A stretch of DNA of 64,000 bases from Akkermansiaceae bacterium (GTDB lineage: Bacteria > Verrucomicrobiota > Verrucomicrobiia > Verrucomicrobiales > Akkermansiaceae): assembly GCA_017798145.1 (NCBI GenBank), contig CP059069.1, positions 3,581,226-3,645,225 of the forward strand, written 5' to 3'. Every line of letters begins with the position of its first letter. Position 1 is the stretch's first letter. Below are positions 36,337 through 47,923 of the stretch, one piece after another. Position numbers and translations under genes: made by a program. The notes under the pieces are model-generated. The model did not search any database. It saw only the letters and a program-made list of their open reading frames with translations, and had not been told where the DNA came from.

Positions 36337-39300
36337 CCGTCTCAAGCTCTTCCACATCGCGGGAACTGCGGCAATCTCCACGTTAGACACGCGCAGGAGC
36401 ATTCCTACCGTCTCAAGCTCTTCCACATCGCGGGAACTGCGGCAATATCACCTTCATTGTCCAGGACTCAGAAACCCTGCCGTCTCAAGCTCTTCCACAT
36501 CGCGGGAACTGCGGCGCAAGAGCCGAGCAACCATAAAACGCATTACTGCCCCGTCTCAAGCTCTTCCACATCGCGGGAACTGCGGCGATTTCCTGCTCCT
36601 TGGTCATCCCCTTCTCCCCCCGCCGTCTCAAGCTCTTCCACATCGCGGGAACTGCGGCCCCTTCTGCGGTCGATGTGGGGTCAGCTTGGAACGCCGTCTC
36701 AAGCTCTTCCACATCGCGGGAACTGCGGCCAGGAGGGGAACCATGGCTGAAAATGCCACGATATGCCGTCTCAAGCTCTTCCACATCGCGGGAACTGCGG
36801 CCTTTCGATCCGGCTTGGTGTTTCTCCCTCAATGTACCGTCTCAAGCTCTTCCACATCGCGGGAACTGCGGCCGCCAAAGCTCTCGACGATGTGGCGTGC
36901 TGTCGTGCCGTCTCAAGCTCTTCCACATCGCGGGAACTGCGGCGAACTCATGCTCATCAGACTTGGCTATCACATCGCTCCGTCTCAAGCTCTTCCACAT
37001 CGCGGGAACTGCGGCGGACGGAAACCTTGTCTCCCTTCCTAGCTGCATCGCCGTCTCAAGCTCTTCCACATCGCGGGAACTGCGGCCAGATCGCTCATGG
37101 TCAGATGCGTTTCCGGAAACTCCGTCTCAAGCTCTTCCACATCGCGGGAACTGCGGCCAGATCGCTCATGGTCAGATGCGTTTCCGGAAACTCCGTCTCA
37201 AGCTCTTCCACATCGCGGGAACTGCGGCGCTTTCAGCCTCTTCCTTCAGCTGCTTTGGCGTTCCCGTCTCAAGCTCTTCCACATCGCGGGAACTGCGGCC
37301 GTTTTGAAGCATGTCGAGAACGGCACAAGATATGCCGTCTCAAGCTCTTCCACATCGCGGGAACTGCGGCTGCGAGCGAGGGAAAGACCCCGCAGGAGGT
37401 TATCCCGTCTCAAGCTCTTCCACATCGCGGGAACTGCGGCTCAAATCCTTCCGGTTTCCTCTTCCATGCGTCGATCCGTCTCAAGCTCTTCCACATCGCG
37501 GGAACTGCGGCTTCCTGGACAACGCCCTTGAAGGCATACTTGAATTCCGTCTCAAGCTCTTCCACATCGCGGGAACTGCGGCCGGCATCCAGATCACGGA
37601 ATCGCTTTCCCCCTCGCCGTCTCAAGCTCTTCCACATCGCGGGAACTGCGGCTGCGAGCGAGGGAAAGACCCCGCAGGAGGTTATCCCGTCTCAAGCTCT
37701 TCCACATCGCGGGAACTGCGGCTCAAATCCTTCCGGTTTCCTCTTCCATGCGTCGATCCGTCTCAAGCTCTTCCACATCGCGGGAACTGCGGCTGCAGAC
37801 TTTCACATGATCGCGGATGCCCTCCGCACGCCGTCTCAAGCTCTTCCACATCGCGGGAACTGCGGCCGGTCTGCATCCGGCGGACGGATCGCAGATCCTT
37901 CCGTCTCAAGCTCTTCCACATCGCGGGAACTGCGGCGCAAGGGCGTTGTTCTTGTTTTGGAGGGACTGCTGCCGTCTCAAGCTCTTCCACATCGCGGGAA
38001 CTGCGGCCATTTCCTCATGAGCGAATCTTCGGGGTGCGGGCACCGTCTCAAGCTCTTCCACATCGCGGGAACTGCGGCCGCACGGGGCGTGATCTGCTCC
38101 TCCCCTTTGTAGACCGTCTCAAGCTCTTCCACATCGCGGGAACTGCGGCCGACTCGGATATTTCACCAAGTTCGTCCGCAACCAGCCGTCTCAAGCTCTT
38201 CCACATCGCGGGAACTGCGGCCATGCTCCGCACCGATTGCATCCGCCTGCTGCAACCGTCTCAAGCTCTTCCACATCGCGGGAACTGCGGCGGCTGTGCC
38301 CGGAACGAAGTCCAACACCACGGTTGCCGTCTCAAGCTCTTCCACATCGCGGGAACTGCGGCGCGCAGCTTCTCCCCAAACTGGTGAAGTCATACTCCCC
38401 GTCTCAAGCTCTTCCACATCGCGGGAACTGCGGCGACGGCGGCTATCTCGCTCACCCAATTCACGGCCCCGTCTCAAGCTCTTCCACATCGCGGGAACTG
38501 CGGCCCAACGTGGTATGCCGAGATGGTGGCCGCTGTCGACCGTCTCAAGCTCTTCCACATCGCGGGAACTGCGGCCATGGGAAAGGGAAGTAGAGTCCGA
38601 GCGGAGTCTTCCGTCTCAAGCTCTTCCACATCGCGGGAACTGCGGCCCTGATTCTCTACGTTCTTTGCCGATATCCTGGACCCGTCTCAAGCTCTTCCAC
38701 ATCGCGGGAACTGCGGCCGCGACGATTAACGAGAACCTACACCTTGCCGATGGGCCGTCTCAAGCTCTTCCACATCGCGGGAACTGCGGCAGCGTTGGGT
38801 GCGGGCGGGTGAGGGGGAGGCGCTGCCGTCTCAAGCTCTTCCACATCGCGGGAACTGCGGCCGATTATGAAAGATTCGTCAAGATCGGTGAACTCCGTCT
38901 CAAGCTCTTCCACATCGCGGGAACTGCGGCTTAATGACCCCGCGGGCTATCGCATCAGCAACGATCCGTCTCAAGCTCTTCCACATCGCGGGAACTGCGG
39001 CTCAGCCGATGCGGTTGCGATGGAGGCGATACCCGCCCGTCTCAAGCTCTTCCACATCGCGGGAACTGCGGCTTCCGCTTCCAAAACGCTTTACCTCAAC
39101 AGCCCTTTCCGTCTCAAGCTCTTCCACATCGCGGGAACTGCGGCATACAAGGACACGCACGAAAACCGCCGCAAGCTCCATCCGTCTCAAGCTCTTCCAC
39201 ATCGCGGGAACTGCGGCCGGAGTTCAAGCGCCGCCACGATGCCGTCGCAGACCGTCTCAAGCTCTTCCACATCGCGGGAACTGCGGCGCTACAAGACCGG

Positions 39301-40144
39301 GGGATGTGCTGGCGAGGCGCTCCGTCTCAAGCTCTTCCACATCGCGGGAACTGCGGCAATCTGGAGGGTTGTATCCGATGGGGTCTTGCCGCTCCGTCTC
39401 AAGCTCTTCCACATCGCGGGAACTGCGGCACGGGGTGGGCAGCAATACGCAGCAGGATGAAACCCCGTCTCAAGCTCTTCCACATCGCGGGAACTGCGGC
39501 TCAAGGGTGTGCTGCTGGTCTGCGGTGGATGCGCGCCGTCTCAAGCTCTTCCACATCGCGGGAACTGCGGCTCGATCTTTTCTGCGGTTATTTCCCTGCC
39601 TCTGACTCCCGTCTCAAGCTCTTCCACATCGCGGGAACTGCGGCGCGTTAGCTTTCGCCGCAAGATCGGTGGTCAGATTCCGTCTCAAGCTCTTCCACAT
39701 CGCGGGAACTGCGGCCACATATTCTACTGTTCAAGCCAATAGTGCTAGCTGCCGTCTCAAGCTCTTCCACATCGCGGGAACTGCGGCGCCTCCACGGATG
39801 GTCGCAGCGAGGCGATCCTGACGCCGTCTCAAGCTCTTCCACATCGCGGGAACTGCGGCGAAGCGTTTCATATCTTAGTGGAAAGCAGTGATTCCCGTCT
39901 CAAGCTCTTCCACATCGCGGGAACTGCGGCGGCAACATGAAGGTTCAAACAAGAGCAAGGAAGAACCGTCTCAAGCTCTTCCACATCGCGGGAACTGCGG
40001 CCCCGGTTTGGAGAAGCAGGTGCCCGAGGTCGTTGTGCCGTCTCAAGCTCTTCCACATCGCGGGAACTGCGGCTCGGCGCGGGGATCGAGCTTGGCGCGG
40101 ATCTTCTCCCGTCTCAAGCTCTTCCACATCGCGGGAACTGCGGC
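36337..40144 (+). CRISPR. CRISPR array, 54 identical 36-nt repeats and 53 spacers
   Basis: On the + strand each repeat starts CCGTCTCAAGCTCTTCCA and ends CATCGCGGGAACTGCGGC. I located 54 copies, starting at 36337, 36408, 36480 and so on up to 40109, without noticing a variant, including both terminal copies. Spacers are 33-37 nt, mostly 35. Neither end has a degenerate repeat, so direction cannot be read from decay. The + orientation gives a repeat beginning (CC)GTC and ending in C, similar in style to published type V-B repeats; the reverse orientation would agree with the cas gene direction. Coordinates hold either way. Array length indicates long-term spacer uptake by the adjacent Cas4-Cas1/Cas2. 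Confidence 0.99.
37087..37757 (+). repeat. Duplicated spacers inside the array
   Basis: Spacers 11 (37087-37121) and 12 (37158-37192) are identical. The block spacer15-repeat-spacer16 (37371-37475) recurs exactly as spacer19-repeat-spacer20 (37653-37757), 282 bp away. This indicates recombination between repeats, not independent acquisition. Confidence 0.95.
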
Positions 40145-40412
40145 TGCGGGGTTCTGAGGGTGTGTGATTACCTTGGGTAGCCGCGCCTTTTGCGAGCGCC
40201 GCTGCGTATTTGTGTCCCGGTGATGCGATCCGATGCCGAAAACGTGACCGCAAAGCCTTTTACTAAAAGGTTCGCGAGCGCGTTCCGGCTGGTGGTGGGG
40301 CATCGCAGCTCTCGCGATGTCAAAGAACAAGTTAAACCCAAGGACGGATGGGAGAAAGGTCGGTGGCGACGTAGCCGGGAAGAGAAAAACAATTCCTAAT
40401 GCCCCCATCAAG
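40145..40412. other. Array-cas2 intergenic region with structured RNA potential
   Basis: This 268-bp gene-free gap lies between the last repeat and cas2. It contains a perfect hairpin CCTTTT-ACT-AAAAGG (40256-40270), a second hairpin CATCGC-(7 nt)-GCGATG (40301-40319), and the anti-repeat at 40304-40328. No credible protein frame is present. Depending on transcription direction it holds the tracrRNA gene, the array leader or both. I see no convincing -10/-35 pair or T-run terminator on either strand. Confidence 0.6.
40304..40328. ncRNA. tracrRNA anti-repeat (putative)
   Basis: The + strand here reads CGCAGCTCTCGCGATG then TCAAAGAAC. Against the reverse complement of the CRISPR repeat, 20 of 25 positions are identical. 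Differences are at 40309, 40312, 40321, 40322 and 40327. Read as a + strand tracrRNA pairing a + strand crRNA, four are mismatches and one is G:U. Read on the - strand, three become G:U and two are mismatches. Cas12b enzymes need a tracrRNA, and in type V-B loci it is known to lie near cas2 and the array, so location and sequence agree. Strand and RNA ends are undetermined. Confidence 0.72.
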
Positions 40413-40703
40413 TCAAATGATGGTGACCCGTGATCTTTCCGTATAGGGCTGGCCTAGGGATTCGATGCGGAAGGGGGAGCTTGAAGATTCCTGTCCCAGC
40501 GAGACGAAGAGGATCTGGTCTTCATCGTGATTGATCAGGATGTGGAGGGCGGCGCGCAGGTTCGCGAGACGGAGATCGTCGAGGGGGCACTCGAAGACGG
40601 AGTATTGGATGCGGGAGCCGAAGGACTCGCAGGTTTTGGCGACCTGGCGGAGGCGTTTCGGGTTCGCGATGTCGTAGGAGACGAGGTAGCGGGTGCGGGG
40701 CAT
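40413..40703 (-). CDS. cas2: CRISPR-associated endoribonuclease/integration subunit Cas2
   Basis: A 96-aa protein with the Cas2 ferredoxin-like start MPRTRYLVSYDIANPKRLRQ (conserved Asp11 after the first beta strand) and SRIQYSVFECPLDDLRLANL, the characteristic Q-x-S-V-F-E segment. Cas2 dimers bridge two Cas1 dimers in the spacer-integration complex. It sits 42 bp downstream of cas4-cas1 on the same strand, with a palindromic element in the gap, and faces the array across the anti-repeat region. Confidence 0.95.
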   Translation of the reverse strand: MPRTRYLVSYDIANPKRLRQVAKTCESFGSRIQYSVFECPLDDLRLANLRAALHILINHDEDQILFVSLGQESSSSPFRIESLGQPYTERSRVTII

Positions 40704-40720: not shown

Positions 40721-40747
40721 CGGCGACCGAAGATCGCCGCCACGTTT
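40721..40747. repeat. Palindromic element GGCGA-CCGAAGA-TCGCC, copy 1
   Basis: The + strand reads CGGCGACCGAAGATCGCCG followed by CCACGTTT. It forms a hairpin right at the cas4-cas1 stop codon. A near-identical copy lies at 47966-47993, also at a reverse-strand stop codon. It looks like a REP-type or terminator-like dispersed element. Confidence 0.75.
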
Positions 40748-42404
40748 ATCGGGTGGTGAAGCCGTAGTAGGTTTGCGCATCGCCCCGGAAATATCTCCAT
40801 AGCTGGCGGGTCTGGACATCGAGCATGCGGCGGTAGGACATGCGGTAGTCGAATTGGGGATGTTTGACTTCGGTATCAAGACGGCGGAACCACGCGCGCC
40901 AGAATTGCCTTCGCCCGGAGTCTCCCATGAAGACGCCTTTGGAGGTGTGCTCGAAGTCATGGGTGCCGAGTTCCTGACGGTTGAGGAGTGAGAGCGCGAC
41001 GGAATCGGCGATGAGCGGGCGGAACTCCTCCATGAGATCAAGCGCGAGCGCGGGGCGACCGTAGCGCGGTTGGTGAAATACCCCGATGAAGGGATCGAGT
41101 CCGACGGCGTGGCAAATGCCGGTGAGTTCCTTGGCGAGGATCGAATAACCCTGGGAAAGGAGAGCGTTGAGGGGGTCATTGGGAGGGCGGCGGTTACGGC
41201 CTTCGAAGTCGAAGTTTTCTCCTGCGGTGCCTTTGAGCATGGTTTTGAAATGGCGGAAGTAATGGGCGGCGGCGGCCCCTTCGATACCACGCAGGGAATC
41301 GAGATCTTTGGCATCGGGGCATTGGTCGCGGAGGTCGGCGAGTTGCTTGAGGATGAGGTCGGGAGGGGAGCCGTTGCGCATGAGGAGGACGCGCTGGTTG
41401 TGGATTTTCGCGCGGATCATTTCGCGGGCGATGGGCAGGCGGTGCTGAGGGGAGTTGAACAGCCGCGCCTGGCCGAGACGGGCGTCGATCCCGGATTGGG
41501 GCAGTCCGGAAGTGGTGCCGAGGAAGCGACCGGCGGGAGAAAAGTAGGCCACGGGTATGCTCCTTTCCAAGAGGGAGTGGATCGCTTGTGTGCTGGTCTG
41601 GACGGCGCCATACAGATAGACCGCTTGGATTTGCTCGATGGGGTGTTTGGAAACGGTTTCCTCGTTGAGGCGGACTTGGATTTCCCCGCCCCGGCAGCCG
41701 AGGTAGGCTTTCGCATCTTGAATGACGATGATTTCCCCCTGGTCGCCGGGAGGGCGGGGCGGCTCGGTGGTCTTCGGGGCTTTCGAGGTGCCCGACCAGA
41801 AAGCGGATTCGTTGGGCAGGCAGATGGAGTAGGCGGAGCAATGGAGGCAGCGGGGATCATCGAGCAAGGGCGGCGGGCATACGCCGGAGGCCGCGAGGGC
41901 GCGGGCTTCTGCGAGGGTGTCGCGGACGGTTTGGAAAAGTGAGTCGGTGAGAGGGACGGGGATGCGGGATTTTTCAGCGGCGTAATAGACCGAGGCTTTC
42001 TTGATGGGCATTCCGGCTTCGGCGAGAAGCATCGCGTATGCGGCCAGTTGGAGGCAGTCGTTTTCCTTGGCGATTCGGTGGTTGTTTTCGTCGCGGCGTG
42101 CGGTGCCCTTTTTGTAGTCGATGATTTCCCTGCCGGATGCGGTGTTCTCTATGAGGTCGATGACTCCGCGCAGGCCGAGGGTTTCGGATTCCAGGGAAAG
42201 GGAGCGGAGGGAGGAGCGCTCGGAGGGATCGAGGTTTTCTCCCCAGTGGGAGGGTTTGTCGGTGTTGCGGTGGGTGTGAGAACCTGCGGCGGTATCTGCG
42301 TCCTCCACCCAAAGATCCTCGACCCACTGGAGGTAGAAGAGCCGCTTGCAGTAGGAGTAGTTGTGCAGGCGACGGACGGGCATGGGAGGATGTTCCGGAT
42401 TCAT
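40746..42404 (-). CDS. cas4-cas1: Cas4-Cas1 fusion protein
   Basis: A 552-aa fusion. Residues ~1-200 are Cas4: Cys19 in NYSYCKRLFY, RecB-type nuclease residues around GVIDLIENT (Asp83) and IIDYKKG (Asp96, Lys98), and the C-terminal cysteines Cys176, Cys186, Cys189 and Cys195 (CLHCSAYSICLP) for the iron-sulfur cluster. Residues ~223-552 are Cas1, with catalytic Glu375 (LRGIEGAAA), His444 (GVFHQPRYG) and Glu459/Glu460 (DLMEEFRP). Cas4 trims and selects PAM-bearing prespacers; Cas1 integrates them. Cas4-Cas1 fusions are typical of types V-B and I-G (formerly I-U). An internal ATG at 42383 is an alternative start. Confidence 0.96.
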   Translation of the reverse strand: MNPEHPPMPVRRLHNYSYCKRLFYLQWVEDLWVEDADTAAGSHTHRNTDKPSHWGENLDPSERSSLRSLSLESETLGLRGVIDLIENTASGREIIDYKKGTARRDENNHRIAKENDCLQLAAYAMLLAEAGMPIKKASVYYAAEKSRIPVPLTDSLFQTVRDTLAEARALAASGVCPPPLLDDPRCLHCSAYSICLPNESAFWSGTSKAPKTTEPPRPPGDQGEIIVIQDAKAYLGCRGGEIQVRLNEETVSKHPIEQIQAVYLYGAVQTSTQAIHSLLERSIPVAYFSPAGRFLGTTSGLPQSGIDARLGQARLFNSPQHRLPIAREMIRAKIHNQRVLLMRNGSPPDLILKQLADLRDQCPDAKDLDSLRGIEGAAAAHYFRHFKTMLKGTAGENFDFEGRNRRPPNDPLNALLSQGYSILAKELTGICHAVGLDPFIGVFHQPRYGRPALALDLMEEFRPLIADSVALSLLNRQELGTHDFEHTSKGVFMGDSGRRQFWRAWFRRLDTEVKHPQFDYRMSYRRMLDVQTRQLWRYFRGDAQTYYGFTTR

Positions 42405-42445: not shown

Positions 42446-42715
42446 ATGCAGGTTACGATCCATGAGGCGAAGACACATCTTTCGCGGCTGATCGCCGCTG
42501 TGGAGAGGGGGGAGGAAGTGGTCATTGCGAGGAGGGATAAACCGGTGGTGGAGCTGCGAGCCGTTGAATCCCCTGCAAAAATCAAGCGTTCTTCGGGATG
42601 TGGCGTTTTGGCCGGGTATTTCAGTGATTCGCTCATCGAGCGCCTCACCAACGATCCGGAACTCGACAAGCAAATTGAAGAAGACTTCGAAAGCTTTGTG
42701 GAAGATTGGAAATGA
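42446..42715 (+). CDS. Phd/YefM-type antitoxin inside the cas locus
   Basis: An 89-aa protein beginning MQVTIHEAKTHLSRLIAAVE, then RGEEVVIARRDKPVVELRAV: the Phd/YefM DNA-binding fold. The acidic tail (DPELDKQIEEDFESFVEDW) is expected to wrap the toxin. It is divergent from cas4-cas1 across only 41 bp and its stop overlaps the toxin ATG. It probably represses its own promoter, which lies in the same gap as the promoter for cas4-cas1, so it could influence adaptation genes too (inference). Confidence 0.9.
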   Translation: MQVTIHEAKTHLSRLIAAVERGEEVVIARRDKPVVELRAVESPAKIKRSSGCGVLAGYFSDSLIERLTNDPELDKQIEEDFESFVEDWK

Positions 42716-43101
42716 AGTTGCTCTTTGACACCCAGGCTTTCCTCTGGTGGTGCTTGGTCGCCCCGCAGATGACCCCTGCGGCTCTCGCAGCCCTGGATGA
42801 GGCCGAGCAGGTGTTCCTCTCGCCAGTGACTCTCTGGGAGATCGGATTGAAGGGCAGCGGAAGGGGATTTGATTTTGATCTCCCAAAGGATTGGGAAACC
42901 GTGCTCCCCGCCCATGCCGAACGCTACCAGATCTCGTGGCTGGCGATATCGCCCCGTCATTGCCGTTTGATTCAGGATTTGCCCTTCCATCACAGAGACC
43001 CCTTTGATCGGATGCTCATCGCACAAGCTTTGGAGGGAGGCCTGTCCGTGATAGGCTCGGATGAGCAGTTTGAGAAATACGGGGTGGAGAGGATTTGGTG
43101 A
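42712..43101 (+). CDS. VapC-like PIN-domain toxin inside the cas locus
   Basis: A 129-aa PIN-domain RNase. The first acidic residue is in MKLLFDTQAFLWW, the second in SPVTLWEIGLK, and the third pair in HRDPFDRMLIAQA, followed by GSDEQFEKYGV. These are the Mg-binding carboxylates of VapC toxins that cut RNA. The ATG overlaps the antitoxin stop (ATGA at 42712-42715). The gene ends four bases before the cas12b stop, so the two run convergently. The pair lies in the opposite orientation to all cas genes. Confidence 0.92.
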   Translation: MKLLFDTQAFLWWCLVAPQMTPAALAALDEAEQVFLSPVTLWEIGLKGSGRGFDFDLPKDWETVLPAHAERYQISWLAISPRHCRLIQDLPFHHRDPFDRMLIAQALEGGLSVIGSDEQFEKYGVERIW

Positions 43102-43105
43102 GGGG

Positions 43106-46100
43106 TTAGATGGGGATTTCGTCGGACAAGCCCCAAGCTTCCAGCCGGCGCTGATTGAGTGCGGCGCAGCGGGCGTAGATGGCTTGGTTCACGGCAGACC
43201 AGAGGGCGAGGCCGGAGACCAGTGGTTGGCCCTTCAAGGAGGCGCGATCATCGAGCAGATTGCCGTCCGGTCGGACGAGGCCATCTGGTTCGTAGAAGAA
43301 ATTCGGGGATGCGCTTTTGGCGAATTTCTTAGAGATAACCGAGGTGATTTCGATCTTTCCGGCGTCCTTGAAAGCGGCCTTTTCACGGGCGTTCTTTTGC
43401 ACGGCAATGTAGTTGCCTTTCTCCATCTTCGCGCGGACACGGCGGTGAATGGCGATGCAAGATGGTGCCGCGACGGCGCGAAGGCCTAGATTGATCGCGG
43501 CGTTCACATCGGATTGGATCGGGTTACCATCGCGGGCTGCGAGGAAGAGTGGGCCGCCTGCAACGGGGAAGTACAGGGTGCGTGGTTTCTTTCCTGACGC
43601 GATGCGGGCAGAATTTTCCTTGGAGATGATTTCAAATTGTTCGAGAATATCTTTTGCAGCCAATGCACGGATCCTATCGGCTTTGCCCGCGGGTTGCGTG
43701 GTTTTTTCGAGAGAGGTTTTTTGATAAGGTTCCAGTTGGTGAAGTTCCTTGAGTCTTGCTCCGGGCTGGCCGTTGCGGAAATGGAAGCGCGAGGAGTAGG
43801 CGGGTGCGATCTCCAGGACGGGGATACCGAAAGGCTCTTCTGCGAGCATCTTTAGCTTGTCTCGGACAGCGCGGTGCGCCCATTTCATCAGACGCGAATT
43901 TTCCGATGGGGCGCGACCTTGGCTGGAGAGGTAGCGGGAGAGATCCTCCATGACGATGAAATCGACGGGTTCCCTGCCTGGGGATTTTTCATATTCGCCG
44001 TGGATGTCGCGGAGACTGCGCTCGGCTTCCGGAATGCTGTGGGCTTTCAGTGAAACACCGAGGGCTTTCGCGAGGATGAGGTGAGCGGTCTGGTTAACAC
44101 GCTGCTCTTTCATCCGGTCGATTTTATCGAGGAGGTTCTGGCAGGGTTCGCCGGATTCTCGGCCTTGGTCTTCGCGGCCGAAGTTCGCGGGAACGTGCGC
44201 TACCTTATCGAGCGAGCGGTTGTAGCGGAGGAAGAGGCGTCTTAGGTCTTCGAGTTGCTCAAGGCGCGACATGGAGAGGCCGCGCTGGCCACGGATTTTC
44301 GGTGTGGCATCCATGAACGGGACGGGGGTGAGATTCCCGTAGGGGCTTTCGCCGCCGCGGTCGATCCATTGCCAAATTTTACCGCGCAAGGGTGCGACGG
44401 AGTTTGCCAAGTTTTCGAGATGGGTCTGTAGTTCGTGACGCAAAGCGGCGAACAGGTCGGCGGAGGCGTTGCGGAAATCAGGGATGGTGGTCTCGGTTAG
44501 GAGCGGGATGAGGGCTTTGACTTTTTCGTCTTCGTAGTGCGCGAGTTCAGCAACCTGGCCTTCGATGACTTTCTTTCGTTTTTCGGGATCCTGGATTTCG
44601 TGTGCCTTGAAGCAACTCCAGCGATGGTAAGCGGCAAGGCGGCTGAGGCGGCGATTTGCGATACGGAGGAGCTTGTCATTCAACTCGGGGAGGCTGAGAT
44701 CGCCGTGGGGGCGTAGCCATTCGGTGGCTTTTTCGATGTCTAGTTTTTGGGCAAGGCTGATGGCGGCAATGTATTCTTCCGGGCTGGGCATGCGTCCGGT
44801 TTTACCGGATTTTTCACGTTCCCATTTCCCCTTGTTCTGGATTTTCAGGTCTTCTCCTGGGAGTCGGTACATTCCCGAGTCGATGACGGTTGCGAACCAC
44901 TCGCGGATGCCGTCAGAGCCGATGGGGATGACGGGTTTGTTGGTATTGGCCTGATGGCAGGTAACTTTTAGTAGTGCCCATGCGCCGGCGTTACGCTGGC
45001 CGAGGTCGTTGGATAGGATGGTGAAGCCGTGCTCGACGATACGGGGGTTTTCCCACCAGCGGTTCTTCTTGGTCGCGTCCCTCTCTGTGCCCGGCCAGTG
45101 GAGATGGATGGATTTGTCTTTGGTGCCATTGAACTGATTTTTCCAAAGGGCTGACTTTCCAAGGAATTGGTGGAGAGGCTCGGCATCCAGGGAAACGGGG
45201 AAGTTCAGGAGGTGTCGGATTTTTCCATCGGCATCGCGATCCGGCATGAGGGATACGGCGCTATCGAAGGCGGCGGCTTTCTCCGGTGCGGGGAGTCCGA
45301 GGGCGGCGGTCATAGGCTGGAGCCATTTTGATTCCGCTCCTCCGAGAAGTTCATCGCGGCGGAGTCGAGGGGCGGAGTAAAATATGCGGACTCGCGTTTC
45401 TTTGAGGTGCGTGCCTGTCTGGAAGGCGATGGCGGTTTCCACGAAATGGCGTGAAGGAGCGTCCCCTTCGCCGGGGATTTCACCCAGTTTCACCTTTGCG
45501 AGTTTGTCCCCTAGGTCGGAAAACATGAAGAGCCTGCGTGAAAGATCCGGCTCGGCAGGGGTGAGCTTGATGGGGAGGCGAAAACGTTCAATTTCGCGTT
45601 CCAGCCGATGAATCTGGATAGCGGCTCGAAAGATTGCGATGCTTTGTGCGGACTTCTCCTGTTCATCTTCGTCGTCGGAAACTTTTTTTCCGGTCTGCCA
45701 GAGGGGGCGGTAAGTTTCTGTGCAGAGCAGGAGGAACAGTTGTACGGATCCGATCTCTCGCTTGTTTTTGTCATCGGCTTGGAATTTTTTTACCACCTTC
45801 TCCAGTTCCTCGGTGCTTGCTGTGAATTTTTCCTTTTCCCAGAGTTCGATGACATCGCGCAGGCCGCGAACGGAGCCGGTGCTGATCTGCCACTCGCCTT
45901 CGTTGAGGTTTCTGCCGAGTTCTGTTTCGAGGTCTGTGATCAGTTTCCATTTTGCCTCCCAGTCCTCGCGGCTTTTCCCGTATCTTGAGGGTGCTGCGAC
46001 TTCGGTGTCTTCATCGCCGGATTTCGGGGCTTCGTCGGTGCGCCAGAGGAGGAAATCGCGCTCGTGGATGGCGCGGTGGAGTTTCTCTTCGCGTTCGATG

Positions 46101-47242
46101 GTTTTGAGATTGAACTGGTTGAGTGCTTTGAGGGCTTCCTTGAAGGCGGCGATGTCGAATTCTTTCCAGACGGGAAGGCCTTCAGATGCCGGGTTCCAGA
46201 TCGGCAGTGAGGTAAAAGCCGGGAAAACGTAGCCGCGATTTCCACGGGCGAGTTTGATGGGATCGTCACCGAGGGAGCGGAAGAGGCTTTCGTCGTCTTT
46301 TTTGGCGGAGACTTTTGTCGCTTTGGGTGCCTTGATCCCGAGGCGTAGGAAGCGGCGGGTGAGTTCGCTGGGAAAGTGGATGAAGGTGATCGCCGAGAAG
46401 GTGAGATCTTTTGCGGCTTTTCTGTTTTTCGGTATGGAAATCTCATCGGGAAGCGTGGCGATTGCATCACGGTAAGCGGAGAGTTGTGTGGCCGGTTCCA
46501 CCCCGAGATTCTCGAGAGCTTCGGTGAGGCGCTTGCTAGGATTTTCCAGCATCGATAAGAGATGGGAGATGGCTTCGTGGAGGCGCGCTTTAGCATCATT
46601 GCCTTTGTAGAACTTGCCGGGTTGGAGCTTCACACCCGCCCATGAGAGATCCATTATGGCGGCGATGGATTCGAGTTCAGCTTGGGAGGGTTCCGAATGA
46701 AGAACATTCGCGAGGGTGTCGGAGCCGGAAGTCGATTCGAGAGATGAAGCGCTGTAGTCCCAGGTTGGATTGGTTTTGGGATCGCAGAACCGCGGGAAAT
46801 ATCCGCGTCCTCCCTGCTGGATGGCCGCGTCGCCTCCGCATTTTGAGAGCAGAAGGGTGAGGGAGACCATGCGGACATTTTCCGGGGCTTCATTACCTGT
46901 GAGGATGGCTTTGAAGCCTTCCCCGATCGTGGCGTTGGTTGGTAGCGCGGGAAAAGTCCTTCGGAGAGAAGCCCTAAGTCCGGATAGTGGTGATTGGTTG
47001 CGAGGATGCTTTTCCCAGGAGGCGTCCAAGCGAACGCGAAGATCACGAATGACGCGGCTCGGTGATGATTTGTCCGCAAGTGATCCGAGGGCGAGCAGGT
47101 AGTAGTTCACGGCATCTTGGAAGATGCTGTGGTGCTTCCAGAGCGGGCAAGAGAGGGGATCGCCGATGGTTGATGTATGGGTATTGCCCTCCGAATCGAT
47201 GATTTCGAGGGATTTGGCACGGCCTTGGTAGATGCGGTTCAT
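43106..47242 (-). CDS. cas12b: Cas12b-like type V-B effector nuclease
   Basis: The start MNRIYQGRAK at 47242 gives 1378 aa; the frame is open 75 codons further but that part is not protein-like. RuvC-I is ILSNDLGQRNAGAWALLKV (Asp746). RuvC-II is IVMEDLSRY (Glu1099), followed by APSENSRLMKWAHRAV and PAYSSRFHFRNGQPG, which closely mirror the Cas12b segment PPSENNQLMQWSHRGV. RuvC-III is IQSDVNAAINL (Asp1245). All three catalytic acids are kept. It would cut DNA guided by crRNA and tracrRNA. Alicyclobacillus Cas12b is 1129 aa, so this one is about 250 residues longer, mostly in the recognition half before RuvC-I. Last gene before the convergent TA pair. Confidence 0.93.
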   Translation of the reverse strand: MNRIYQGRAKSLEIIDSEGNTHTSTIGDPLSCPLWKHHSIFQDAVNYYLLALGSLADKSSPSRVIRDLRVRLDASWEKHPRNQSPLSGLRASLRRTFPALPTNATIGEGFKAILTGNEAPENVRMVSLTLLLSKCGGDAAIQQGGRGYFPRFCDPKTNPTWDYSASSLESTSGSDTLANVLHSEPSQAELESIAAIMDLSWAGVKLQPGKFYKGNDAKARLHEAISHLLSMLENPSKRLTEALENLGVEPATQLSAYRDAIATLPDEISIPKNRKAAKDLTFSAITFIHFPSELTRRFLRLGIKAPKATKVSAKKDDESLFRSLGDDPIKLARGNRGYVFPAFTSLPIWNPASEGLPVWKEFDIAAFKEALKALNQFNLKTIEREEKLHRAIHERDFLLWRTDEAPKSGDEDTEVAAPSRYGKSREDWEAKWKLITDLETELGRNLNEGEWQISTGSVRGLRDVIELWEKEKFTASTEELEKVVKKFQADDKNKREIGSVQLFLLLCTETYRPLWQTGKKVSDDEDEQEKSAQSIAIFRAAIQIHRLEREIERFRLPIKLTPAEPDLSRRLFMFSDLGDKLAKVKLGEIPGEGDAPSRHFVETAIAFQTGTHLKETRVRIFYSAPRLRRDELLGGAESKWLQPMTAALGLPAPEKAAAFDSAVSLMPDRDADGKIRHLLNFPVSLDAEPLHQFLGKSALWKNQFNGTKDKSIHLHWPGTERDATKKNRWWENPRIVEHGFTILSNDLGQRNAGAWALLKVTCHQANTNKPVIPIGSDGIREWFATVIDSGMYRLPGEDLKIQNKGKWEREKSGKTGRMPSPEEYIAAISLAQKLDIEKATEWLRPHGDLSLPELNDKLLRIANRRLSRLAAYHRWSCFKAHEIQDPEKRKKVIEGQVAELAHYEDEKVKALIPLLTETTIPDFRNASADLFAALRHELQTHLENLANSVAPLRGKIWQWIDRGGESPYGNLTPVPFMDATPKIRGQRGLSMSRLEQLEDLRRLFLRYNRSLDKVAHVPANFGREDQGRESGEPCQNLLDKIDRMKEQRVNQTAHLILAKALGVSLKAHSIPEAERSLRDIHGEYEKSPGREPVDFIVMEDLSRYLSSQGRAPSENSRLMKWAHRAVRDKLKMLAEEPFGIPVLEIAPAYSSRFHFRNGQPGARLKELHQLEPYQKTSLEKTTQPAGKADRIRALAAKDILEQFEIISKENSARIASGKKPRTLYFPVAGGPLFLAARDGNPIQSDVNAAINLGLRAVAAPSCIAIHRRVRAKMEKGNYIAVQKNAREKAAFKDAGKIEITSVISKKFAKSASPNFFYEPDGLVRPDGNLLDDRASLKGQPLVSGLALWSAVNQAIYARCAALNQRRLEAWGLSDEIPI

Positions 47243-47363
47243 GGGGGCTGATTGGTGAAGTATGAATTTCCGACGATGTGTTAGATTGACGGGTGGAATG
47301 CGTGAGTCGAGGTGAAAGACTGGGATGATTAGATGTTGAGTGATGTTTGCGGACGATCTGGGA

Positions 47364-47923
47364 GGGTGTGGGCGTAAGTTGGCACTTGGGATTGTGGCTT
47401 CTCCGAGAATGGAAGGCGGTTGTTTTTTTGTCGGGCGGTCAGCGCGCAGGCACTTGCCCTGAATCACGCGCAGACGGCGGGCTGGGGCTTTCGTTTTGCC
47501 TTGGCTTTGCGGGGAGGCTGGGAGCTTTGGCCCGGTTTGCGGAAGCGGGAGCTGTTCCAGGGGATGGGTTGTCCGTTGAAGAGGACGCGGAGGCCGGTGA
47601 GGAAGAGGCCTTGGTTTCCGTCGGGGCTGTGGCGGACGGCGACGACGTGGTAGGCGGTGCCGGGGCGGAGCGGGCCGTCGGGGAAGGAATAGGCGGAGAG
47701 GGGGATGCCGGGCGGTGCGCAGAGGGGGCGGGAGAGGTCGGTGTTGTAGGCGACGGCTTTGTGGCCGGGGCGGAATGTTTGCATGGGTGTGCCGGGGTTT
47801 GTTTCAGGGGGTCATTCGAGGGTGAAGACGCCGGTGGGTGTGGGCGTAGAAGGGCATGGCGTGTTGGGTGGCAGAAAGGGGTTTCCATTTTTCCTTGGGC
47901 TGGCCTTCGAGGGTGTGGGCGTA
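47364..47923. repeat. 13-bp GGGTGTGGGCGTA, three exact copies upstream of cas12b
   Basis: Exact copies lie at 47364-47376, 47836-47848 and 47911-47923. On the reverse strand each encodes Y-A-H-T in some frame. Two are preceded by ATG-like starts (MNSYAHT, MPFYAHT). They may be remnants of duplicated gene starts or regulatory sites. Confidence 0.7.
47464..47784 (-). CDS. Small conserved-looking hypothetical protein (106 aa)
   Basis: Starts MQTFRPGHKAVAYNTDLSRP and continues into a beta-rich stretch (GPLRPGTAYHVVAVRHSPDG) that reads like a small SH3-like or Sm-like barrel. The last 25 residues are basic and low-complexity (KPGQSSQPPRKAKAKRK), possibly nucleic-acid binding. I do not recognise the family. 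It lies 221 bp upstream of cas12b on the same strand. Confidence 0.55.
   Translation of the reverse strand: MQTFRPGHKAVAYNTDLSRPLCAPPGIPLSAYSFPDGPLRPGTAYHVVAVRHSPDGNQGLFLTGLRVLFNGQPIPWNSSRFRKPGQSSQPPRKAKAKRKPQPAVCA

Follow-up and report, generated by a model that had tools for sequence, protein, structure and literature searches.

An anti-repeat between cas2 and the CRISPR array of an Akkermansiaceae genome very probably belongs to a type V-B Cas12b tracrRNA

Introduction

The window analyzed here, a stretch of 64,000 nucleotides from an Akkermansiaceae genome that consists of one 4.39-Mb contig, holds a CRISPR array and, between this array and cas2, a sequence that resembles the reverse complement of the array's repeat. 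Such an anti-repeat raises the question of whether it forms part of a tracrRNA, and, if it does, from which strand that RNA would be read and with which nuclease it would act. The initial annotation proposed a candidate tracrRNA and did not choose between its strands. Based on the comparison of the locus with its relatives, it is very likely that the anti-repeat is part of the tracrRNA of a type V-B Cas12b system, a minus-strand transcript together with the crRNA that would pair with two parts of the repeat and guide a nuclease with a 5'-ATC PAM. Searches of the open literature found no paper on the tracrRNA of a verrucomicrobial or Opitutaceae Cas12b (C2c1), and for Akkermansia in combination with Cas12b they found only reviews on other subjects.

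Results

Layout of the locus and its cas genes

On the minus strand the order is cas12b, cas4-cas1, cas2, a gap of 268 bases (40145-40412) and then the array.

43106-47467, minus strand: cas12b (NF033949, 709 bits against a cut-off of 150; longest open reading frame 1453 aa)
40746-42404, minus strand: cas4-cas1 fusion (NF049935 cas4g_cas1g, 606 bits against a cut-off of 560)
40413-40703, minus strand: cas2 (PADLOC Cas2g, 5.5e-27; TIGR01573, 50 bits against a cut-off of 24.5)
36337-40144, minus strand: CRISPR array of 54 identical repeats and 53 spacers (crRNA repeat GCCGCAGTTCCCGCGATGTGGAAGAGCTTGAGACGG), oriented from target flanks

The start of cas12b is probably the ATG of codon 75 (47245), because homology starts around residue 76-81. 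Residues D821, E1174 and D1320 of the predicted protein are invariant across 18 aligned Cas12b, and from knowledge of the fold we take them to be the RuvC catalytic residues. The locus therefore has the effector expected of type V-B, above the curated cut-off and with its RuvC residues kept, and it holds the cas4-cas1 fusion and cas2. Between cas12b and cas4-cas1, on the opposite strand (42446-43101), lie genes for a Phd/YefM-like antitoxin and a PIN-domain protein. The 53 spacers of the array include 50 distinct ones, as a block of two spacers is found at both 34-35 and 38-39, and spacers 42 and 43 are the same. Two repeats near-identical to those of the window occur in a genome of the same genus (L304, G158:C143) that is missing from the list of genomes matching Cas12b.

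Relatives of the locus

Whole genomes were searched with the Cas12b family at E 0.001. Among 260 genomes of the taxonomic family there were 19 matches, 18 of them above the cut-off; the corresponding figures were 31 and 30 for the 386 genomes of the order and 15 and 12 for the 387 of the phylum. The three sets overlap, and of 14 control genomes one matched, with a score under the cut-off. Scanning the contigs of GTDB species provided 89 relatives, 80 of which were kept. Together with the window these supplied 64 loci with an array near cas2 and 53 distinct cas2-array gaps, from which two were left out: L083, whose array is inverted with respect to cas2, and L166, whose array reads in the opposite direction. 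The remaining loci were divided into two groups of our own making: a first group of 42 loci, including the window, with repeats ending GGCGG or GACGG, and a second group of nine loci with repeats ending GACAC, GACGC or GGCAC, one of which (L155) is without the second anti-repeat described below in place. All shuffles made in our own scripts are of single bases and not of dinucleotides.

The main anti-repeat and its agreement with the repeat

40304-40328, minus strand: main anti-repeat (AR), predicted to pair with repeat bases 3-27

By hand count, AR agrees with the reverse complement of the repeat (36 nt) at 20 of 25 bases, and the scored segment matches at 19 of 23 positions for a score (matches minus mismatches) of 15, while 100 base-shuffled versions of the cas2-array gap yield a mean of 7.2 and no score above 11; the sequence that the initial annotation singled out is thereby borne out. 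Read as minus-strand RNA, AR and the repeat form 20 Watson-Crick pairs, three G:U pairs and two mismatches, and the hand count likewise agrees with the annotated figures for both strands (three G:U and two mismatches for minus, one G:U and four mismatches for plus). The co-folding that had been suggested as a check gives a predicted duplex energy of -39.1 kcal/mol on the minus strand and of -31.6 kcal/mol on the plus strand, where the duplex is stable as well; shuffled repeats average -15.0 and -11.9 kcal/mol, respectively.

The agreement between anti-repeat and repeat is specific to the locus in most cases. Across the 42 first-group loci, where the score is the best match downstream of the hairpin described below, AR scores a mean of 13.6 with its own repeat and 7.7 with the repeats of other loci, and the own repeat outscores the mean of the others in 41 of the 42. 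A score of at least 9 against the own repeat is reached in 36 of these loci, while in the other six (L082, L084, L087, L106, L121 and L133) the score is 8 or less and not above shuffles. In five loci (L058, L060, L062, L063 and L093) AR sits farther from the hairpin. The cas genes and this comparison with relatives both support the assignment of the feature as the tracrRNA anti-repeat of a V-B locus.

A second anti-repeat in a covarying hairpin loop

40343-40347, minus strand: second anti-repeat (AR1), CCGUC in a hairpin loop, the complement of GACGG, the five bases that end the repeat next to the spacer
40337-40352, minus strand: hairpin displaying AR1, with 4 bp in the window and mostly 6-7 pairs in relatives; covariation across 41 aligned loci

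The hairpin adjoins AR on the cas2 side. With at least five of seven Watson-Crick pairs it occurs in 39 of the 42 first-group loci, whereas 200 sets of shuffled gaps average 0.28. It is present with other loop sizes in the window (4 bp), L075 and L085. The loop and the end of the repeat co-vary among the first-group loci: in 39 the repeat ends GGCGG and the loop is CCGCC, and in the window, L059 and L123 the repeat ends GACGG and the loop is CCGUC. In the second group, matching pairs of repeat end and complement (GACAC/GUGUC, GACGC/GCGUC and GGCAC/GUGCC) are found in 8 of 9 loci, with the complement 32-41 nt before AR, a count made without a shuffle control. In known V-B guides the tracrRNA pairs with two parts of the repeat, as can also be read by eye in the published guide discussed below, and from sequence and covariation AR and AR1 would provide such a two-part pairing here.

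The stem of the hairpin covaries, with 76 cells changed on both sides compared to 20.2 in shuffles and a covariation score on the strand in which the cas genes are read (cas-sense; minus in the window) of 0.767 compared to 0.269 in shuffles, over 41 aligned loci. The number of stem pairs with two-sided changes (7 versus 5.2) is less telling, as 36 of 500 shuffles reach 7. One locus with tandem tracr copies (L070) was excluded from the hairpin alignments; the same locus, as L118:14376-14597, carries the tracrRNA hairpin unit three times in tandem, 95 bases apart.

A covariance model of the tracrRNA core

40302-40379, minus strand: tracrRNA core as modeled (5' part, AR1 hairpin and AR), with predicted ends; 51.2 bits with model R1

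The covariance model R1 was built on the cas-sense strand from 41 training loci, including the window. In the window's own genome it scores 51.2 bits at the tracrRNA, and its 15 further matches all reach 21.8 bits or less, 14 of them in the array and one elsewhere (14.6 bits). A better anti-repeat elsewhere in the genome had been named as grounds for rejecting the candidate, and no place that resembles this tracrRNA as well is found among the 150 of 1,930 first-look candidates that were scored with R1. Among 43 further loci, 12 match at E 2e-4 or better (L098, L109, L097, L122, L130, L069, L088, L071, L061, L086, L089 and L083); the match in L061 is truncated where the contig stops, two others (L109 and L071) closely duplicate training loci, and some of the matched loci have no array found on their contig. 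On the second-group loci given to it R1 has no good match, the best being L150 with 21.2 bits, and no Rfam family reaches its gathering score over the window.

Three of the matched loci differ in arrangement. L083 has its R1 match and its array jointly inverted with respect to the cas genes, while L086 and L088 carry the two upstream of cas12b; in all three the match is located ~157 nt before the array, on the array's strand. The tracrRNA, leader and array thus remain together and co-directional in these loci though inverted or moved relative to the cas genes.

Strand of the hairpin and of the anti-repeat

The stem covaries also when read on the other strand (score 0.664), as expected, and so the strand call from the hairpin draws on the G:U pairs. 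With fixed geometry, selection on Watson-Crick pairs only and the window, L075 and L085 dropping out, the imperfect stem pairs of 39 loci on the cas-sense strand comprise 28 G:U, 0 A:C and 13 others, a count that replaces an earlier pair-maximising one (32 versus 1). It should be noted that 17 of the 28 G:U pairs fall in one column and that the loci are kin to one another, such that these counts are not independent events. In two separate alignments, 89.5% of stem cells pair on the cas-sense strand and 82.0% on the other, and RNAalifold gives -6.45 and -3.72 kcal/mol, respectively. The innermost stem pair on the cas-sense strand is C-G in 17 loci, U-G in 17 and unpaired in six, and on the other strand it is unpaired in 23 of 41.

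The wobbles within AR were also tried as a strand test and are uninformative, with 19 G:U on the cas-sense strand versus 24 on the other over 22 loci and 39 versus 37 over all 42. The wobble argument of the initial annotation thus points to the minus strand in the window itself, as it said, and is not diagnostic generally. Its opposing argument, that the resemblance of the repeat to known V-B repeats favors forward transcription, did not hold: the close targets described below have 5'-ATC in the minus-strand orientation, and the second-group relatives show, by eye, the part order of the published guide on the cas-sense strand. Most likely, AR and the tracrRNA lie on the minus strand and run in the same direction as cas12b, cas4-cas1, cas2 and the array.

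Leader, array polarity and promoter

40145-40303, minus strand: leader between the tracrRNA and the first repeat
40192-40199, minus strand: leader box GCGCTCGC, with its start 55 nt ahead of the first repeat
40274-40281, minus strand: second leader box GCGCTCGC, with its start 137 nt ahead of the first repeat
40383-40416, minus strand: region of a possible promoter for the tracrRNA, which overlaps the stop codon of cas2 and is weak in the window

Degenerate end repeats, where present, mark the cas-distal end of the arrays (11 of 23) and never the cas2-proximal end (0 of 23), a count that covers those arrays (23 of 50) for which 100 nt or more of sequence follows the distal end, with L058, L083 and L166 skipped. 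The window's array is mute on polarity because its repeats are all identical. In L083 a degenerate repeat copy with five mismatches is on the cas2 side because that array is inverted.

In 36 of the 42 loci the cas2-array gap contains the pattern GCGCTCGC, and in 17 it does so two or more times (mean in shuffles 0.175). The array-proximal box lies 54-57 nt before the array in 25 of the 42, often with another at ~136 nt, and ranks among the best conserved columns of the leader (for this column comparison the hairpin coordinate of L100 was set by hand). From this placement, we infer that the box suits an adaptation or leader signal better than a switch that pairs with AR.

Between cas2 and the hairpin, matches to -35/-10 elements on the cas-sense strand exceed those in shuffles over the 42 loci (Wilcoxon p 0.0003), and on the other strand there is no such excess (p 0.30). 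The match in the window is 8 of 12 positions versus a shuffled mean of 7.1, and a stricter promoter scan of the window found none. No terminator-like site was seen between the tracrRNA and the array in the window, and such a site is present in six of the 42 loci and absent from 36, counted without a chance control. A joint transcript of tracrRNA and array by read-through is possible.

Spacer targets and a candidate PAM

The 952 distinct spacers of all arrays were compared with all DNA fetched; the genomes scanned for targets belong to the same family. Eight spacers of five relatives (L081, L083, L086, L087 and L091) have non-self targets with at most three mismatches. In the window's array, spacer 2 from the cas2 side has a target with three mismatches in 35 in a genome of the same genus, at two sites (G146:C1:5470116-5470150 and 876429-876463; L305 and L308) that are identical over the 3,035 bases fetched. 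The target is inside long overlapping open frames, one of which weakly matches a phage DNA transposition protein (29.6 bits); Pfam gave no match for these frames. Read in the cas-sense orientation of the repeat, all nine spacers have 5'-ATC directly 5' of the target, and the opposite flank shows no common triplet by eye. Six of the nine match a single contig (G056:C38), where a terminase, a Mu-type portal and a head protease are encoded. Eight weaker target places, with 4-6 mismatches, are without ATC.

Type V nucleases have their PAM 5' of the target. ATC, seen at the targets of the relatives' arrays and of one window spacer, is probably the PAM of this group; it would lie 5' of the protospacer, as for type V-B, and differs from TTN. 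Two further spacers, spacer 20 of L086 and spacer 3 of L083, match their own genomes with 0 and 1 mismatch and have the flanks CCG and AGC, not ATC. In phage records the best match for the window's array was only 93% over 29 bases (E 0.3) and the arrays of three relatives had no targets, and in the plasmid search one place appeared, with 83% over 48 bases. Viral contigs contained no target when scanned with a 22-base piece and no Cas12b.

Discussion

A proposed guide RNA read towards the array

Sequence comparison shows that the anti-repeats complement the repeat and that this match is conserved and covaries; it also gives the hairpin's strand, the orientation of the repeat (through target flanks) and the array polarity of the relatives. 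From these a course of events may be proposed. The tracrRNA would be transcribed from the minus strand, from near the cas2 stop codon towards the array, and the pre-crRNA would be transcribed on the same strand from the leader on the cas2 side. AR would pair with most of each repeat (bases 3-27) in the pre-crRNA, and by analogy with known systems this duplex would then be trimmed, probably by RNase III. The CCGUC loop of the hairpin would pair with GACGG, the last five bases of the repeat beside the spacer, locking crRNA and tracrRNA into one guide for loading into Cas12b. As in known V-B systems, Cas12b would then cut DNA that matches the spacer beside a 5'-ATC PAM.

Alternative readings

It is very improbable that the plus strand is the source of both tracrRNA and crRNA, with transcription running towards cas2. 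The even wobbles of AR over the 42 loci and the stability of the plus-strand duplex would permit such a direction, but ATC would then fall 3' of the target, and Cas12b PAMs are 5' as stated in PMC6255809 and PMC6342934. The 28 G:U to 0 A:C among imperfect stem pairs, the array polarity in relatives and the absence of a promoter excess on that strand argue against it as well, and the order of parts would be reversed, by eye, relative to the published Cas12b guide. Even less probable is that AR is a decayed inverted repeat left by a rearrangement of the array, without a functional RNA. The imperfect match of 20 in 25 and the weak AR1 stem and promoter of the window are what decay might leave, yet the placement is conserved, each anti-repeat agrees with its own repeat, the hairpin covaries and AR1 fits the window's own unusual repeat end. 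Additionally, the RuvC residues are retained and a spacer of the window matches a phage-like element with an ATC flank.

The third alternative concerns regulation and is compatible with a minus-strand V-B tracrRNA: AR may switch between pairing with itself and pairing with the crRNA, as the initial annotation suggested, or pair with the leader box ~35 nt downstream, and so regulate guide formation. The self-fold does exist in the window (-8.7 kcal/mol), and by eye AR can pair with the second leader box. A self-fold of -6 kcal/mol or better is found in only 8 of the 42 loci, however, in a count where the AR positions are off in a few loci, and the duplex of AR with the repeat is far stronger in the window at -39.1 kcal/mol. 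The array-proximal box, at its steady distance from the array in 25 loci, suits a leader signal better. A role as a switch is very unlikely.

Implications

With a minus-strand V-B tracrRNA as the preferred reading, an ambiguous anti-repeat becomes a defined guide RNA whose strand, structure and PAM can be put to the test, one that would belong to a verrucomicrobial branch of Cas12b that includes relatives of Akkermansia. The analysis also indicates that wobble counts in an anti-repeat need not by themselves reveal its strand, while a covarying hairpin and the flanks of targets can. If true, the ATC PAM would broaden the target range of Cas12b tools.

A more far-reaching proposal, which we put forward tentatively and consider somewhat doubtful, is that these loci constitute a distinct verrucomicrobial variant of V-B, with a tracrRNA-leader-array module that holds together when moved relative to the cas genes (as in three loci), a loop-displayed AR1 that locks onto the end of the repeat beside the spacer, a 5'-ATC rather than a TTN PAM, and, given that 36 of the 42 loci show no terminator-like site between tracrRNA and array, possibly one read-through transcript for the tracrRNA and first crRNA. 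Such a transcript, if real, would be a natural relative of the engineered single guide.

Comparison with known systems

Among the closest counterparts are the relatives themselves. As in the window, the 41 other first-group loci, from Verrucomicrobiota and neighboring phyla, have cas4-cas1, cas2, tracrRNA, leader and array co-directional, and usually cas12b too, and they share the AR1-loop hairpin, with fixed spacing in 39 of the 42, and in most cases AR. The window differs from them in its rarer GACGG/CCGUC combination, its shorter stem and the Phd/PIN toxin-antitoxin-like pair inside its cas cluster.

Beyond these relatives, the locus was compared with a Cas12b (C2c1) single guide RNA that is presumably the Alicyclobacillus scaffold. 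Its sequence is printed in Table 2 of PMC13203532 and, by eye, resembles the window in several respects: the tracr body comes first with the anti-repeat at its 3' side, GUGCC matches the last five bases of the repeat (GGCAC), and the 3' end of the repeat adjoins the spacer. In the printed guide GUGCC is within a longer stem, whereas in the window's group CCGUC or CCGCC is the loop of a separate hairpin. Of three nucleotide profiles of the tracrRNAs described here, tested on that sequence with L083, L166, L155, L137 and L106 dropped, two gave no match and the third 2.1 bits on the same strand, and because the profiles provide no link, the likeness rests on part order and pairing.

The placement and PAM of other Cas12b systems can be set beside the window in the same manner. 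For BhCas12b, AkCas12b, EbCas12b and LsCas12b, PMC6342934 reports a putative tracrRNA between Cas12b and the array, from small-RNA sequencing, while that of the window would lie between cas2 and the array. The same source gives these four a T-rich PAM 5' of the protospacer and PMC6255809 gives AaCas12b a TTN PAM, in contrast to the ATC of the window's group; both sources place Cas12b PAMs 5' of the target, the side on which ATC also lies. The tracrRNA appears to be of a known kind, that of type V-B, with variant details, and the details that would be new are the ATC PAM, the second anti-repeat displayed in a loop and the leader boxes.
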